A stretch of DNA of 64,000 nucleotides, from assembly GCF_003337425.1 (NCBI RefSeq), contig NZ_QPJU01000010.1, positions 1-64,000 on the forward strand, read 5' to 3'. Under the pieces are notes generated by a model that worked only from the letters and a program-made list of their open reading frames with translations, was not told the origin of the DNA and ran no database searches. Position numbers and translations under genes: made by a program. Positions 12,032-48,375 of the stretch are shown here, piece by piece (the first letter of the stretch is position 1; each line of letters begins with the position of its first letter). The stretch comes from Extensimonas vulgaris. Lineage in GTDB: Bacteria; Pseudomonadota; Gammaproteobacteria; Burkholderiales; Burkholderiaceae_C.

Positions 12032-12475
12032 ATGGACTTACGGAAACTCAAAACCTTGATCGATCTCGTGTCTGAATCAAACGTCTCGGAGCTCGAGATC
12101 ACGGAGGCAGAAGGCAAGGTGCGCATCGTCAAAGGTGGTGCAACCATGGTTCAGCAATACGTGCCGGTGGCAGCACCCGCGGCCCCGGCGGCAGCGCCTG
12201 CCGCTGCGGCTGCCGAACTGCCCGCGCCCACGGCCTTGCCGGGCCATGTGGTCAAGTCGCCCATGGTGGGCACGTTCTACCGTGCGCCCAGCCCCGGCGC
12301 CAAGCCCTTCGTCGAGGTGGGCAGCCAAGTCAAAGAAGGCGACACGCTGTGCATCATCGAGGCGATGAAGATCCTCAACGAAATCGAAGCCGACAAAGCC
12401 GGCACCGTTACGCGCATCCTGTGCGAAAACGGGCAGGCCGTGGAATACGGACAGCCGCTGTTCGTGATCGAGTAA
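12032..12475 (+). CDS. accB: Biotin carboxyl carrier protein of acetyl-CoA carboxylase
   Basis: Carrier subunit of acetyl-CoA carboxylase. 147 residues from [16 protein letters not shown]; an Ala/Pro linker (about 45-68) joins to the biotinyl domain, where K113 in [11 protein letters not shown] is the biotinylated lysine. The ATG is preceded by GGAG. It is followed by the duplicated accC start region. Confidence 0.97.
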
Positions 12476-12483
12476 GGCGGCGC

Positions 12484-12576
12484 ATGTTCAAAAAGATACT
12501 GATCGCCAACCGCGGGGGTCATGCCACAGGCATGGCGAAGCAAATTGCCCTGGCACGCGCAGCGTGCGGGCGATGA
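12484..12576 (+). CDS. Decoy mini-ORF 1 with the accC start sequence
   Basis: A 30-residue frame starts with the first eleven AccC residues ([11 protein letters not shown]) and then reads through the inserted palindromic segment to a TGA. It begins 8 bp after the accB stop. The peptide has no known function. It would be translated from the accB-accC mRNA if initiation occurs here, and ends 15 bp before the next copy. Confidence 0.4.
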   Translation: MFKKILIANRGGHATGMAKQIALARAACGR

Positions 12577-12591
12577 GCCGCGGGAGAAACC

Positions 12592-12684
12592 ATGTTCAAA
12601 AAGATACTGATCGCCAACCGCGGGGGTCATGCCACAGGCATGGCGAAGCAAATTGCCCTGGCACGCGCAGCGTGCGGGCGATGA
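12592..12684 (+). CDS. Decoy mini-ORF 2, identical to mini-ORF 1
   Basis: Second identical 30-residue frame, preceded by the strong GGGAGAAACC ribosome-binding sequence and ending 15 bp before the true accC ATG. If translated it could couple ribosomes into accC or compete with it. Confidence 0.4.
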   Translation: MFKKILIANRGGHATGMAKQIALARAACGR

Positions 12685-12699
12685 GCCGCGGGAGAAACC

Positions 12700-14049
12700 A
12701 TGTTCAAAAAGATACTGATCGCCAACCGCGGCGAAATCGCCCTCCGCATCCAGCGCGCCTGCCAGGAGCTCGGCGTCAAAGCCGTGATGGTCTATTCCGA
12801 GGCCGACCGCGAAGCCAAATACGTCAAGCTTGCCGAAGAAGCCGTGTGCATAGGCCCTGCGCCTTCGCCGCTGAGTTACCTCAACATGCCGGCCATCATT
12901 TCGGCCGCTGAAGTGACCGACGCCGAGGCCATCCATCCCGGGTACGGTTTTTTGAGCGAGAACGCCGATTTTGCCGAGCGCGTCGAAAAGAGCGGCTTCG
13001 AATTCATCGGCCCGAGTCCCGAGTCCATCCGCATCATGGGCGACAAGGTTTCGGCCAAACAGGCCATGATCAAGGCCGGCGTGCCTTGCGTGCCGGGCTC
13101 GGAAGGGGCATTGCCAGATGACCCCGTGCAGATCCGTCGCATTGCGCGCGCCGTGGGGTACCCGGTGATCATCAAGGCGGCCGGCGGTGGTGGCGGGCGG
13201 GGGATGCGCGTGGTGCACACCGAGGCGGCGTTGATCAACGCCGTGCAAACCACCAAGTCCGAAGCGGCAGCGGCCTTTGGCAACCCTTCGGTTTACCTGG
13301 AAAAATTCCTGCAAAACCCGCGCCATATCGAAATCCAGGTGCTTGCCGACAAGCACCGCAATGCCGTCTATCTGGGCGAGCGCGACTGCTCCATGCAGCG
13401 GCGCCACCAAAAGGTGATCGAAGAGGCCCCCGCGCCCGACATTCCGCGCCGGCTCATCGAGCGCATCGGCGAGCGCTGCGTGGCCGCGTGCAAGAAAATC
13501 GGCTACCGCGGCGCGGGTACGTTCGAGTTCCTGTACGAAAACGGCGAGTTCTACTTCATCGAGATGAACACGCGCGTGCAGGTCGAGCACCCCGTCACCG
13601 AATGGATCACCGGCATAGACATCGTGCGCACGCAAATCCTCGTTGCGGCGGGCGAAAAGCTGCCGTTCACACAGCGCCAGATCCAGTTGCGCGGCCATGC
13701 GATCGAGTGCCGCATCAATGCCGAAGACGCGTACAAATTCACCCCCTCGCCGGGCCGCGTCACGATGTGGCATCCGCCCGGCGGGCCGGGCGTGCGTGTC
13801 GATTCGCACGTCTATACCAACTACTACGTGCCGCCGAACTACGACTCGATGATCGGCAAAATCATCACGCACGGCGATACTCGCGAACAGGCGCTCGCGC
13901 GCATGCGCACGGCGCTTGCCGAAACGGTGGTCGAGGGCATACAGACCAACATCCCGCTGCACCGCGAGATGCTCGTGGATGCCAAATTCGTCGCCGGTGG
14001 CACGAGCATCCATTACCTCGAGGAATGGCTCGAGCAGCACAAGCGCTGA
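12700..14049 (+). CDS. accC: Biotin carboxylase subunit of acetyl-CoA carboxylase
   Basis: ATP-dependent carboxylation of the biotin on AccB. 449 residues, full length: N-terminal [20 protein letters not shown]-grasp glycine loop [14 protein letters not shown], the conserved [18 protein letters not shown] and [14 protein letters not shown], and a C-terminal biotin carboxylase domain. The start at 12700 is the only copy of the duplicated ATG that leads into the full protein. Confidence 0.97.
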
Positions 14050-46266: not shown

Positions 46267-48375
46267 ATGTTTGAAAAAATCCTGATCGCCAACCGCGGAG
46301 AGATCGCTTGCCGCGTCGCCGCCACGGCGCGCCGCATGGGCGTGAAGACCGTCGCCGTGTATTCGGACGCCGACGCGCGCGCGCGGCACGTGGCTGTGTG
46401 CGATGAAGCCGTGCACATCGGCGCCAGCGCACCCAAAGACAGCTACCTGCGCTGGGAGCGCATCATCGAGGCGGCCAAGGCCACGGGCGCGCAGGCCATC
46501 CACCCGGGCTACGGCTTTTTGAGCGAGAACGAGGCCTTCGCGCAGGCCTGCGCCGATGCGGGGCTGGTGTTCATCGGCCCCTCGCCTGCGGCGATCAAGG
46601 CCATGGGGCTCAAGGCCGGCTCCAAGCAGCTCATGGAAAAGGCCGGCGTGCCGCTCGTGCCCGGCTACCACGGCGCCGACCAGGACCCGGCGCTGCTGCG
46701 CGCCGAGGCCGAGCGCATCGGCTACCCCGTGCTCATCAAGGCGAGCGCGGGCGGAGGCGGCAAGGGCATGCGCGTGGTGCAAAAGGCCGAGGACTTTGCC
46801 GCGGCGCTCGCCTCGTGCCAGCGCGAGGCGCGCAGCAGCTTCGGCGACGACGCGGTGCTGATCGAAAAATACGTGCAGCGCCCGCGCCACATCGAAATCC
46901 AGGTGTTTGGCGACACGCTGGGCAACTATGTCTATCTGTTCGAGCGCGACTGCTCGGTGCAGCGCCGCCACCAGAAGGTGCTCGAAGAAGCGCCCGCACC
47001 CGGCATGACGCCCGAGCTGCGCGCGCGCATGGGCCTGGCTGCCGTGGCCGCGGCGCGCGCCGTGCAGTACGTGGGCGCGGGCACGGTGGAGTTCATCGTC
47101 GAGCAGCCCGGCGGCTACGCGCACCCCGAGCAGATGCAGTTCTACTTCATGGAAATGAACACGCGCCTGCAGGTCGAGCACCCGGTGACCGAGGCCATCA
47201 CGGGGCAAGATTTGGTCGAGTGGCAGCTGCGCGTGGCCGCGGGCGAGCCGCTGCCCTGCCGCCAGGAAGACCTGCGCATCCAGGGCCACGCGATCGAGGC
47301 GCGCATCTGCGCCGAAAACCCCGACAACGACTTCCTGCCCGCCACGGGCGCGCTGCAGGTGCTGCGCCTGCCTGCGTGCACGCAGTTCGAGCCGGCGCCC
47401 GCGCGCGGCCCCGCGGCCGGCGTGCGCGTGGACGCGGGCGTGCGCGAGGGCGACGCGATCAGCCCGTTTTACGACTCCATGGTCGCCAAGCTCATCGTGC
47501 ACGGCGAAACGCGCGCGCAGGCGCTGGCACGGCTCGATGCGGCGCTTGCGCAGACGCACATCGTGGGTCTGACGACGAACGTGCAGTTTTTGCGCCGTGT
47601 GGTGCGCAGCACGGCGTTTGCCAAGGCGCAGCTCGACACCGCGCTGATCGAGCGCGAGCGCGCCGCGCTGTTCGGGCAAGAGCCGCTGGGCCTGCCGCTG
47701 GCCGTGGCCGCGGCCGTGGCAAACACCTTGCACAGCGAGCGTGCGCATGAAGACGCCGACCCCTTCAGCCGCCGCGACGGCTGGTGCACGCACGGGCTTT
47801 ACGAGCGGCGCTTTGCGTTCGAGTTCGGCGGCAGACCCGCACGCGCGCAGCTGCGCTATCTGCACGATGGCGCCTTGCACCTGCGCGTGCAGGGTGCGCA
47901 GGTGGGCAGCGACGCGGACGCGGATGCTGCAGGCGGGGGCGGCAACCCCGCCGCCGAGCTGCCCGAAGTCGCGGCCGGTACGCTGGCATTTGCGCCCTTC
48001 GAGAATGCGTCCGGCACGCTGGAGCTGCAGTTCGCGGGCGAGCGCGTGCGCGTGAACGTGTATCTGCGCGGCGAAGTCGCGCACATCTTCAGCGCACGCG
48101 GCGCAACGCAGATCACCGCGCTCGATTTGCTCGCGCACGCCGGCGAGGACGCGAGCGAAGGCGGGCGCCTGAGCGCGCCCATGCCGGGCAAGGTGGTGTC
48201 GTTTGCAGTGCAGCCCGGCGAGCGCGTGCGCAAGGGCCAGCCGCTCGCGGTGATGGAAGCCATGAAGATGGAGCACACCATCGCCGCACCCATGGACGGC
48301 GTGGTGCAGGAGCTGCTCTACGCCCCCGGCGACCAGGTGGCCGAGGGCGACGAGCTGCTCAAGCTCGGCGCCTGA
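46267..48375 (+). CDS. liuD: Methylcrotonyl-CoA carboxylase biotin-containing subunit
   Basis: 702 residues with biotin carboxylase at about 1-450 ([63 protein letters not shown]), a BT-type linker, and a C-terminal biotinyl domain with VMEAMKMEHTIAAPMDG. Full-length alpha subunit for LiuB. It begins 30 bp after vapC. Confidence 0.94.
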   Translation: MFEKILIANRGEIACRVAATARRMGVKTVAVYSDADARARHVAVCDEAVHIGASAPKDSYLRWERIIEAAKATGAQAIHPGYGFLSENEAFAQACADAGLVFIGPSPAAIKAMGLKAGSKQLMEKAGVPLVPGYHGADQDPALLRAEAERIGYPVLIKASAGGGGKGMRVVQKAEDFAAALASCQREARSSFGDDAVLIEKYVQRPRHIEIQVFGDTLGNYVYLFERDCSVQRRHQKVLEEAPAPGMTPELRARMGLAAVAAARAVQYVGAGTVEFIVEQPGGYAHPEQMQFYFMEMNTRLQVEHPVTEAITGQDLVEWQLRVAAGEPLPCRQEDLRIQGHAIEARICAENPDNDFLPATGALQVLRLPACTQFEPAPARGPAAGVRVDAGVREGDAISPFYDSMVAKLIVHGETRAQALARLDAALAQTHIVGLTTNVQFLRRVVRSTAFAKAQLDTALIERERAALFGQEPLGLPLAVAAAVANTLHSERAHEDADPFSRRDGWCTHGLYERRFAFEFGGRPARAQLRYLHDGALHLRVQGAQVGSDADADAAGGGGNPAAELPEVAAGTLAFAPFENASGTLELQFAGERVRVNVYLRGEVAHIFSARGATQITALDLLAHAGEDASEGGRLSAPMPGKVVSFAVQPGERVRKGQPLAVMEAMKMEHTIAAPMDGVVQELLYAPGDQVAEGDELLKLGA

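Follow-up and report, generated by a model that had tools for sequence, protein, structure and literature searches.

Two tandem units of a probable translated leader of biotin-carboxylase genes in front of accC in Extensimonas vulgaris

Leader-peptide attenuators and riboswitch-type leaders combine a short leader ORF with structured RNA and mutually exclusive pairings, and occur in tandem copies. REP/BIME repeats and the Rickettsia palindromic elements are palindromic repeats. Acetyl-CoA carboxylase is the entry to fatty-acid synthesis, and its control is poorly understood outside E. coli. According to one paper, regulators specific to the transcription of acetyl-CoA carboxylase genes remain elusive (PMC11602165). 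Termination–reinitiation with Shine–Dalgarno motifs inside the upstream frame was tested in E. coli and H. volcanii, as reported in a study of overlapping genes (PMC6728339).

The window analyzed here is a stretch of 64,000 nucleotides of Extensimonas vulgaris (positions 1 to 64,000 of contig NZ_QPJU01000010.1, assembly GCF_003337425.1, forward strand). The 108-bp tandem repeat in front of accC is confirmed: positions 12483–12590 are identical over 108 bp to positions 12591–12698 by sequence comparison, the first 33 bp of both repeats recur a third time at 12699–12731 as the accC start, and Tandem Repeats Finder reports a period of 108, 2.3 copies, and 100% matches. The original prediction, made from this sequence alone, of a duplicated accC start with two decoy ORFs therefore stands, with identical 108-bp copies and 30-residue frames. 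The features of the region, together with a second carboxylase gene of the window, are as follows.

12032–12475, + strand: accB, biotin carboxyl carrier protein, the upstream gene (ORF with an EAMK biotinylation motif in the translation; the start ATG at 12032 is a reading of the sequence; ends in TAA, then the spacer GGCGGCGC)
12484–12591, + strand: leader unit 1, with decoy start, hairpins, and ribosome-binding sequence (match to covariance model R1 at 12508–12591, 99.9 bits)
12484–12515, + strand: decoy start 1, a copy of accC codons 1–10 plus 2 nt (repeat family D2)
12484–12576, + strand: leader ORF 1, 30 aa, closed by a TGA 15 nt short of the next ATG
12518–12536, + strand: hairpin P2 of unit 1 (predicted fold; repeated at 12626–12644)
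12544–12574, + strand: hairpin P3 of unit 1 (predicted fold and alignment pair counts, helix 3; repeated at 12652–12682)
12592–12699, + strand: leader unit 2, identical to unit 1 and adjoining accC (R1 match at 12616–12699, 99.9 bits; this unit is a member of the R1 training alignment)
12592–12623, + strand: decoy start 2 (repeat family D2)
12592–12684, + strand: leader ORF 2, 30 aa, closed by a TGA 15 nt short of the accC ATG
12676–12691, + strand: anti-start segment GGGCGATGAGCCGCGG (also at 12568–12583 in unit 1; predicted pairing)
12690–12694, + strand: Shine–Dalgarno-like GGGAG of accC, contributed by the unit
12700–14049, + strand: accC, biotin carboxylase, 449 aa (NCBIfam accC TIGR00514, 733.1 bits against a cut-off of 626.5)
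46267–48375, + strand: second biotin-carboxylase gene of the window, without a unit (its counterpart in the related genome G001 has one unit)

Each 108-bp unit opens with a copy of accC nucleotides 1–32, followed by a 76-nt segment that contains two hairpins and terminates in GGGAGAAACC, directly 5' of the next ATG. The 76-nt segment folds at −35.5 kcal/mol compared with a shuffled mean of −27.7 (z −2.62; 1 of 200 shuffles is equally good). Both decoy ATGs start 30-residue frames that run through the hairpins and end 15 nt 5' of the next ATG. The predicted ribosome-binding sequence GGGAGAAACC, at 12582–12591 and 12690–12699, does precede the second copy and accC; the first copy is without it and is separated from accB by the spacer GGCGGCGC.

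We posit that the two copies of the repeat are probably units, in tandem, of a translated leader that is conserved, specific to biotin-carboxylase genes, and coupled to accC. Like attenuators and riboswitches, this leader has tandem copies of a structured RNA with a short ORF, and two pairings that exclude each other are predicted for it; unlike them, its alternative pairing partner is the gene's own coding start, and we know of no regulatory-codon run or ligand for it. The unit resembles REP/BIME repeats and Rickettsia palindromic elements in being a palindromic element of about 100 bp with hairpins in a translated context, but differs from them in not being dispersed in the searched genomes, in its position at the start of one gene family, and in carrying a duplicated start and ribosome-binding site. 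With overlapping-gene coupling as described in PMC6728339 it shares an upstream frame that ends on or within a few nucleotides of the downstream start and a Shine–Dalgarno sequence inside or beside that frame, whereas the upstream frame of the leader is a short copy of the downstream gene's start and not a gene.

A DNA search with an 81-bp segment against 299 sampled genomes of the family gave strong matches 5' of carboxylase genes. Eleven of 20 regions examined from the DNA matches have no carboxylase start within about 1.1 kb, and the tally at E ≤ 0.01 (116 of 299 genomes), which contains many chance matches of the GC-rich hairpin, was not used. A MAFFT alignment (A1) of 32 units of all types placed the arms of the hairpins wrongly, and its consensus fold was poor; the types were therefore split for alignment, and two covariance models, R1 and R2, were built from 13 accC-type and 14 other units, respectively. 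These alignments begin after the decoy ATG and end before the real ATG, so both ATGs are omitted, and the 27 training units were picked by eye from 43, the 16 omitted being long-hairpin or divergent variants and second copies. At E ≤ 0.001, R1 and R2 together returned 130 rows corresponding to 108 distinct places in 76 of the 299 sampled family genomes; this and the order and class counts below are lower bounds given the strict filters used above 40 genomes. A start codon whose product has the biotin-carboxylase N-terminal motif lies within −12 to +45 nt of the match end at all 108 places, 97 of which precede the gene itself and 11 the next tandem unit; 27 places are in the training sets, and the other 81 agree without exception.

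The element was found in 53 genera of the family. Searches of the order and class sets used R2 only: 250 genomes of the order yielded 14 further places in 12 genomes of seven other Burkholderiales families, all 14 preceding biotin-carboxylase-motif starts (one of them before the next unit), and the sole match among 185 genomes of the class was the E. vulgaris genome. A pattern scan of named genomes found 21 contigs, every one with a biotin-carboxylase motif downstream, in genera that include Variovorax, Pseudacidovorax, Pseudorhodoferax, Ramlibacter, Rivibacter, Azohydromonas, and Extensimonas. The original prediction had suggested a REP-like dispersed segment. This is not supported by the genome-wide DNA and covariance-model searches, in which all 108 model matches among the sampled family genomes lie at biotin-carboxylase-motif starts; in the E. 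vulgaris genome itself, the segment has no match at E ≤ 0.001 (R1 and R2, strict filters) other than the two accC units, and a weak relative (24.4 bits) lies before another carboxylase gene.

On this comparative basis, each copy of the 108-bp repeat is a unit of an apparently undescribed leader family. Narrow searches of the open-access literature found no description of the element in print. A gathering-score scan of the window with Rfam 15 returned one tRNA only and no match in the leader region; a sensitive scan of 12300–12900 returned DnaX at 16.8 bits (cut-off 35) and sR42 at 10.2 bits (cut-off 38), and the four Rfam matches at E ≤ 0.1 in eight loci of relatives are all under the cut-off. 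Full-length scans of nine carboxylase proteins, eight of whose genes follow a unit, gave a match to biotin-carboxylase models in every case; beyond these nine, carboxylase identity rests on the N-terminal motif. Only accC and L231, a large carboxylase gene on contig C7 of the E. vulgaris genome (G000), pass the NCBIfam cut-offs, which do not separate most of the paralogues. The 97 genes form six classes by the residues after ANRG, and in 19 of the 76 genomes more than one carboxylase gene is preceded by a unit.

The reading frame of the leader is preserved. The decoy frame is open to −20 in all 97 final units, compared with 19/97 and 60/97 for the other frames; because the +2 frame is also open in 60/97, openness is weaker evidence than stop placement. 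Of the 97 final units, 93 have the first stop of the leader frame ending in the interval from −20 to +9 relative to the gene start, and four miss this interval; the other frames stop there in 8/97 and 10/97. When each genus is represented by a single unit, the counts are 51 of 53 for the leader frame and 4 and 5 for the other frames. The spacing of the units is 1 mod 3 in 64, 2 mod 3 in 22, and 0 mod 3 in 11 of the final units, so the period divisible by three that was remarked on at accC holds for its 108 bp but is not general (11/97). Stop positions differ from one spacing class to the next: in the 1 mod 3 class, 56 of 64 units stop at +8, inside ATGTTTAA (including TGA and TAG forms), that is, within the second and third codons of the downstream gene. 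This commonest stop gives an 8-nt overlap, longer than the ATGA/TGATG overlaps named in the abstract of PMC6728339. Eleven units lie upstream of another unit in a tandem array; 10 of these have their decoy on the contig, and all 10 stop between −19 and +8 of the next start; the tandem unit of G087 C135 is cut by the contig end.

In G004, as read from the sequence, the decoy is no longer like accC but an ATG-started frame still ends in ATGTTTAA. Seven of the 97 mapped decoys have no ATG, GTG, or TTG at the mapped position; decoys were placed by best match to the gene start, and a few may be out of register. Given that the peptide end differs between spacing classes, stop placement and not the peptide tail appears to be kept. 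Frame and stop placement together look like the signature of translation coupled by termination–reinitiation. For the original suggestion that the decoys may lower or couple AccC synthesis, the layout fits coupling; the amount of AccC is no part of this support.

The codon used for the second residue of the gene is consistent with this placement. A stop at +8 requires that Phe2 be TTT, and Phe2 is TTT in 57/64 and TTC in 7/64 genes of the 1 mod 3 class but TTT in 8 and TTC in 14 of the other classes (p 3.7e-6, a value that ignores relatedness); counting one per genus and class, the TTT/TTC numbers are 46/5 and 5/13, respectively. The 22 accC genes scored as without a unit have TTT in 3 and TTC in 19; this control set was split by hand into 22 loci without a unit and 8 with a unit or a long gap, and two of the 22 (L029 and L036) likewise show long gaps. 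Three genomes of another family have a gene with an MFTK start in which ACT stands where the decoy has ACC, and the ACT creates a TAA with which the leader frame ends at +11.

Mismatches between decoy and gene fall at codon positions 1, 2, and 3 in the numbers 58, 43, and 246 (90 units), a skew that exceeds the 1:1:2 expected for free drift (chi-square p 1e-17, ignoring relatedness). A Shine–Dalgarno-like sequence precedes the real start in 94/97 and the decoy in 71/97 units. The original prediction had counted conserved 30-codon frames in relatives, if unrelated to accC, as evidence against it; conserved leader frames do exist, but they are copies of whichever carboxylase follows. Decoys have a mean identity of 0.87 to their own gene start and of 0.79 to the starts of other genomes, with their own higher in 90/97. 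This closeness would also be expected if the decoy were an extra copy of a binding site for the enzyme or an sRNA, making the leader an autoregulatory feedback target, and in E. coli a carboxylase subunit reportedly represses translation of carboxylase genes; however, the differences between decoy and gene lie mostly at third codon positions, which indicates that the RNA sequence is not strictly kept, and we regard this alternative as quite unlikely.

Conserved helices are suggested by the alignments. In the accC-type alignment, 88.7% of cells pair, and double-change cells number 19 compared with 7.4 in shuffles; in the other alignment they number 6 compared with 1.6, and none of 500 shuffles reaches the observed value in either case. 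The excess of pairs changed on both sides is less decisive, with 5 against 3.1 in shuffles for the accC-type alignment (reached by 41/500) and 3 against 1.4 for the other (reached by 59/500). Compensatory changes are present at two pairs of P2 (helix 2 of the alignment). Four loci (L060, L062, L066, and L068) have extra long hairpins in the P2 region, and the element therefore tolerates added hairpins.

The 3' part of each accC unit, GGGCGATGAGCCGCGG, is approximately the reverse complement of accC codons 9–15, the target being CCGCGGCGAAATCGCCC at 12726–12742. In 77/91 comparisons across units, this anti-start segment pairs better with its own gene start than with same-class starts of other genomes; its own start is also the better partner in 92/97 when set against more distal windows of that gene. 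When the 11-nt partners are compared, the real start is better in 36, the decoy in 19, and the two are equal in 42. For accC, the segment has 13.4 expected pairs with the decoy side when the gene start is absent and 13.6 with the real start (12726–12742) when it is present. Both alternative pairings are predicted in 83/96 units, a count made without a shuffled control, and the copying of the sequence by itself accounts for part of this dual pairing. Simple sequestration of the ribosome-binding site is not supported: the predicted openness of the Shine–Dalgarno sequence is 0.44 with the element and 0.44 with only 25 nt upstream, and it is lower with the element in 47/96 units.

Comparison across genomes shows an element family, its restriction to carboxylase genes in the searched genomes, a kept frame and stop, and conserved helices. 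Translation of the leader, reinitiation, any effect on the amount of AccC, and any sensed signal are inferred. In the coupled-leader reading, the decoy start would hold the position of the original accC start, such that ribosomes arriving from accB would initiate there, translate the short ORF through the hairpins, and stop beside or on the following start codon, where reinitiation would use the unit's own Shine–Dalgarno sequence; with two units, this stop–restart cycle would take place twice before accC. The segment just 5' of the real start, an inverted copy of gene codons 9–15, could form pairs with either the decoy/hairpin side or the real start in the manner of an RNA switch, and translation of the leader would probably pick the pairing and thereby set AccC output. 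We are more tentative about a broader proposal, which we hold to be possible but somewhat doubtful, that the element represents a new cis-regulatory RNA class, a switch of biotin-dependent carboxylases that mimics the gene's own start: the translated decoy and the inverted codons would compete for pairing, leader translation would thereby set carboxylase output, and copy number would be an evolvable dial.

Three genomes of the genus were compared, the E. vulgaris window genome (G000), G001, and G002, with gene correspondence judged by start peptide and flanks. The numbers of units in G000, G001, and G002, in this order, are 2, 0, and 1 at accC, in agreement with the predicted variation in copy number; 0, 1, and 0 at the carboxylase gene at 46267 of the window; 0, 1, and 1 at a carboxylase gene with an MFDT start; and 1, 0, and 1 at the large carboxylase gene L231, where both units are weak (24.4 bits in G000 and 18.0 bits in G002) and the G001 counterpart has a different upstream sequence. 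The L231 unit (G000:C7, about 114–243) is degenerate, with a rearranged 3' hairpin. Presence and absence between close relatives is, by such comparison, taken as established, and since it differs at four carboxylase loci in the genus, no unit is essential at a locus. Filled and empty sites at accC and the 46267 gene have a common left flank and differ by one start-hairpin unit plus point differences; at accC, the left spacer TAAGGCGGCGC is identical in all three genomes, and G001, with its empty site, and G002, with its single unit, also have the accB-side spacer GGCGGCGC. The difference amounts to 76 nt inserted between copies of roughly 32 nt, and a unit of this size leaves no room for a transposase gene.

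These sites bring in a second alternative, namely that the repeat is selfish or neutral and tied to carboxylase starts, the coupled leader ORF merely rendering it harmless. Such a repeat would persist and spread by recombining through the start homology of about 32 bp: units would be lost when direct repeats recombine and gained through conversion or the integration of an excised copy. It is favored by presence and absence next to an unchanged left spacer in three genomes, by a decoy identical to the gene over 32 nt in G001, by units at six carboxylase sequence classes that must have been reached by copying, and by tandem arrays in 9 of the 76 unit-bearing genomes. However, no model match lies away from carboxylase starts, the anti-start segment tracks its own gene, and hairpin type, assigned by crude patterns, largely follows gene class, with type A in 16/24 accC-class units and type D in 7/7 AVR/AIR-class units, which looks like long residence and not hopping. 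Because of this last association, long residence at a locus with clean loss and homogenization of decoy and gene seems to fit better than frequent hopping, and we judge a selfish or neutral repeat to be unlikely, if the strongest of the alternatives.

A chance tandem duplication or an assembly artefact without function, which the original prediction had wished to exclude, would account for two units that are 100% identical in one draft assembly, and the count of exactly two units at accC does rest on that single assembly of 28 contigs. Tandem arrays are nevertheless found in 9/76 unit-bearing family genomes, E. vulgaris included, so the arrangement is not peculiar to one assembly, and the element recurs with frame and stop preserved across the 53 genera and the seven other families. 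Copy number at accC aside, this explanation is already refuted for the element itself, and we give it hardly any credence. A further array is present at L071 (G112:C12, 491–898), where a carboxylase gene is preceded by three 136-nt units in tandem; their 3' part is divergent, and the leader frames stop at −19.

If the coupled-leader reading is correct, a leader common to several carboxylase classes in Burkholderiales would make a shared control point testable. The copying of a gene start, by which the old start becomes part of a coupled leader, would be an unusual way to insert sequence while leaving the gene unbroken, and a repeat that copies starts could mislead the annotation of start sites. 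Finally, the carboxylase locus L236 (G085:C59, ORF 234–2519 on the minus strand) has about ten tandem copies of a 10-residue GARGGVGTME-like repeat, which sits inside the biotin-carboxylase domain.
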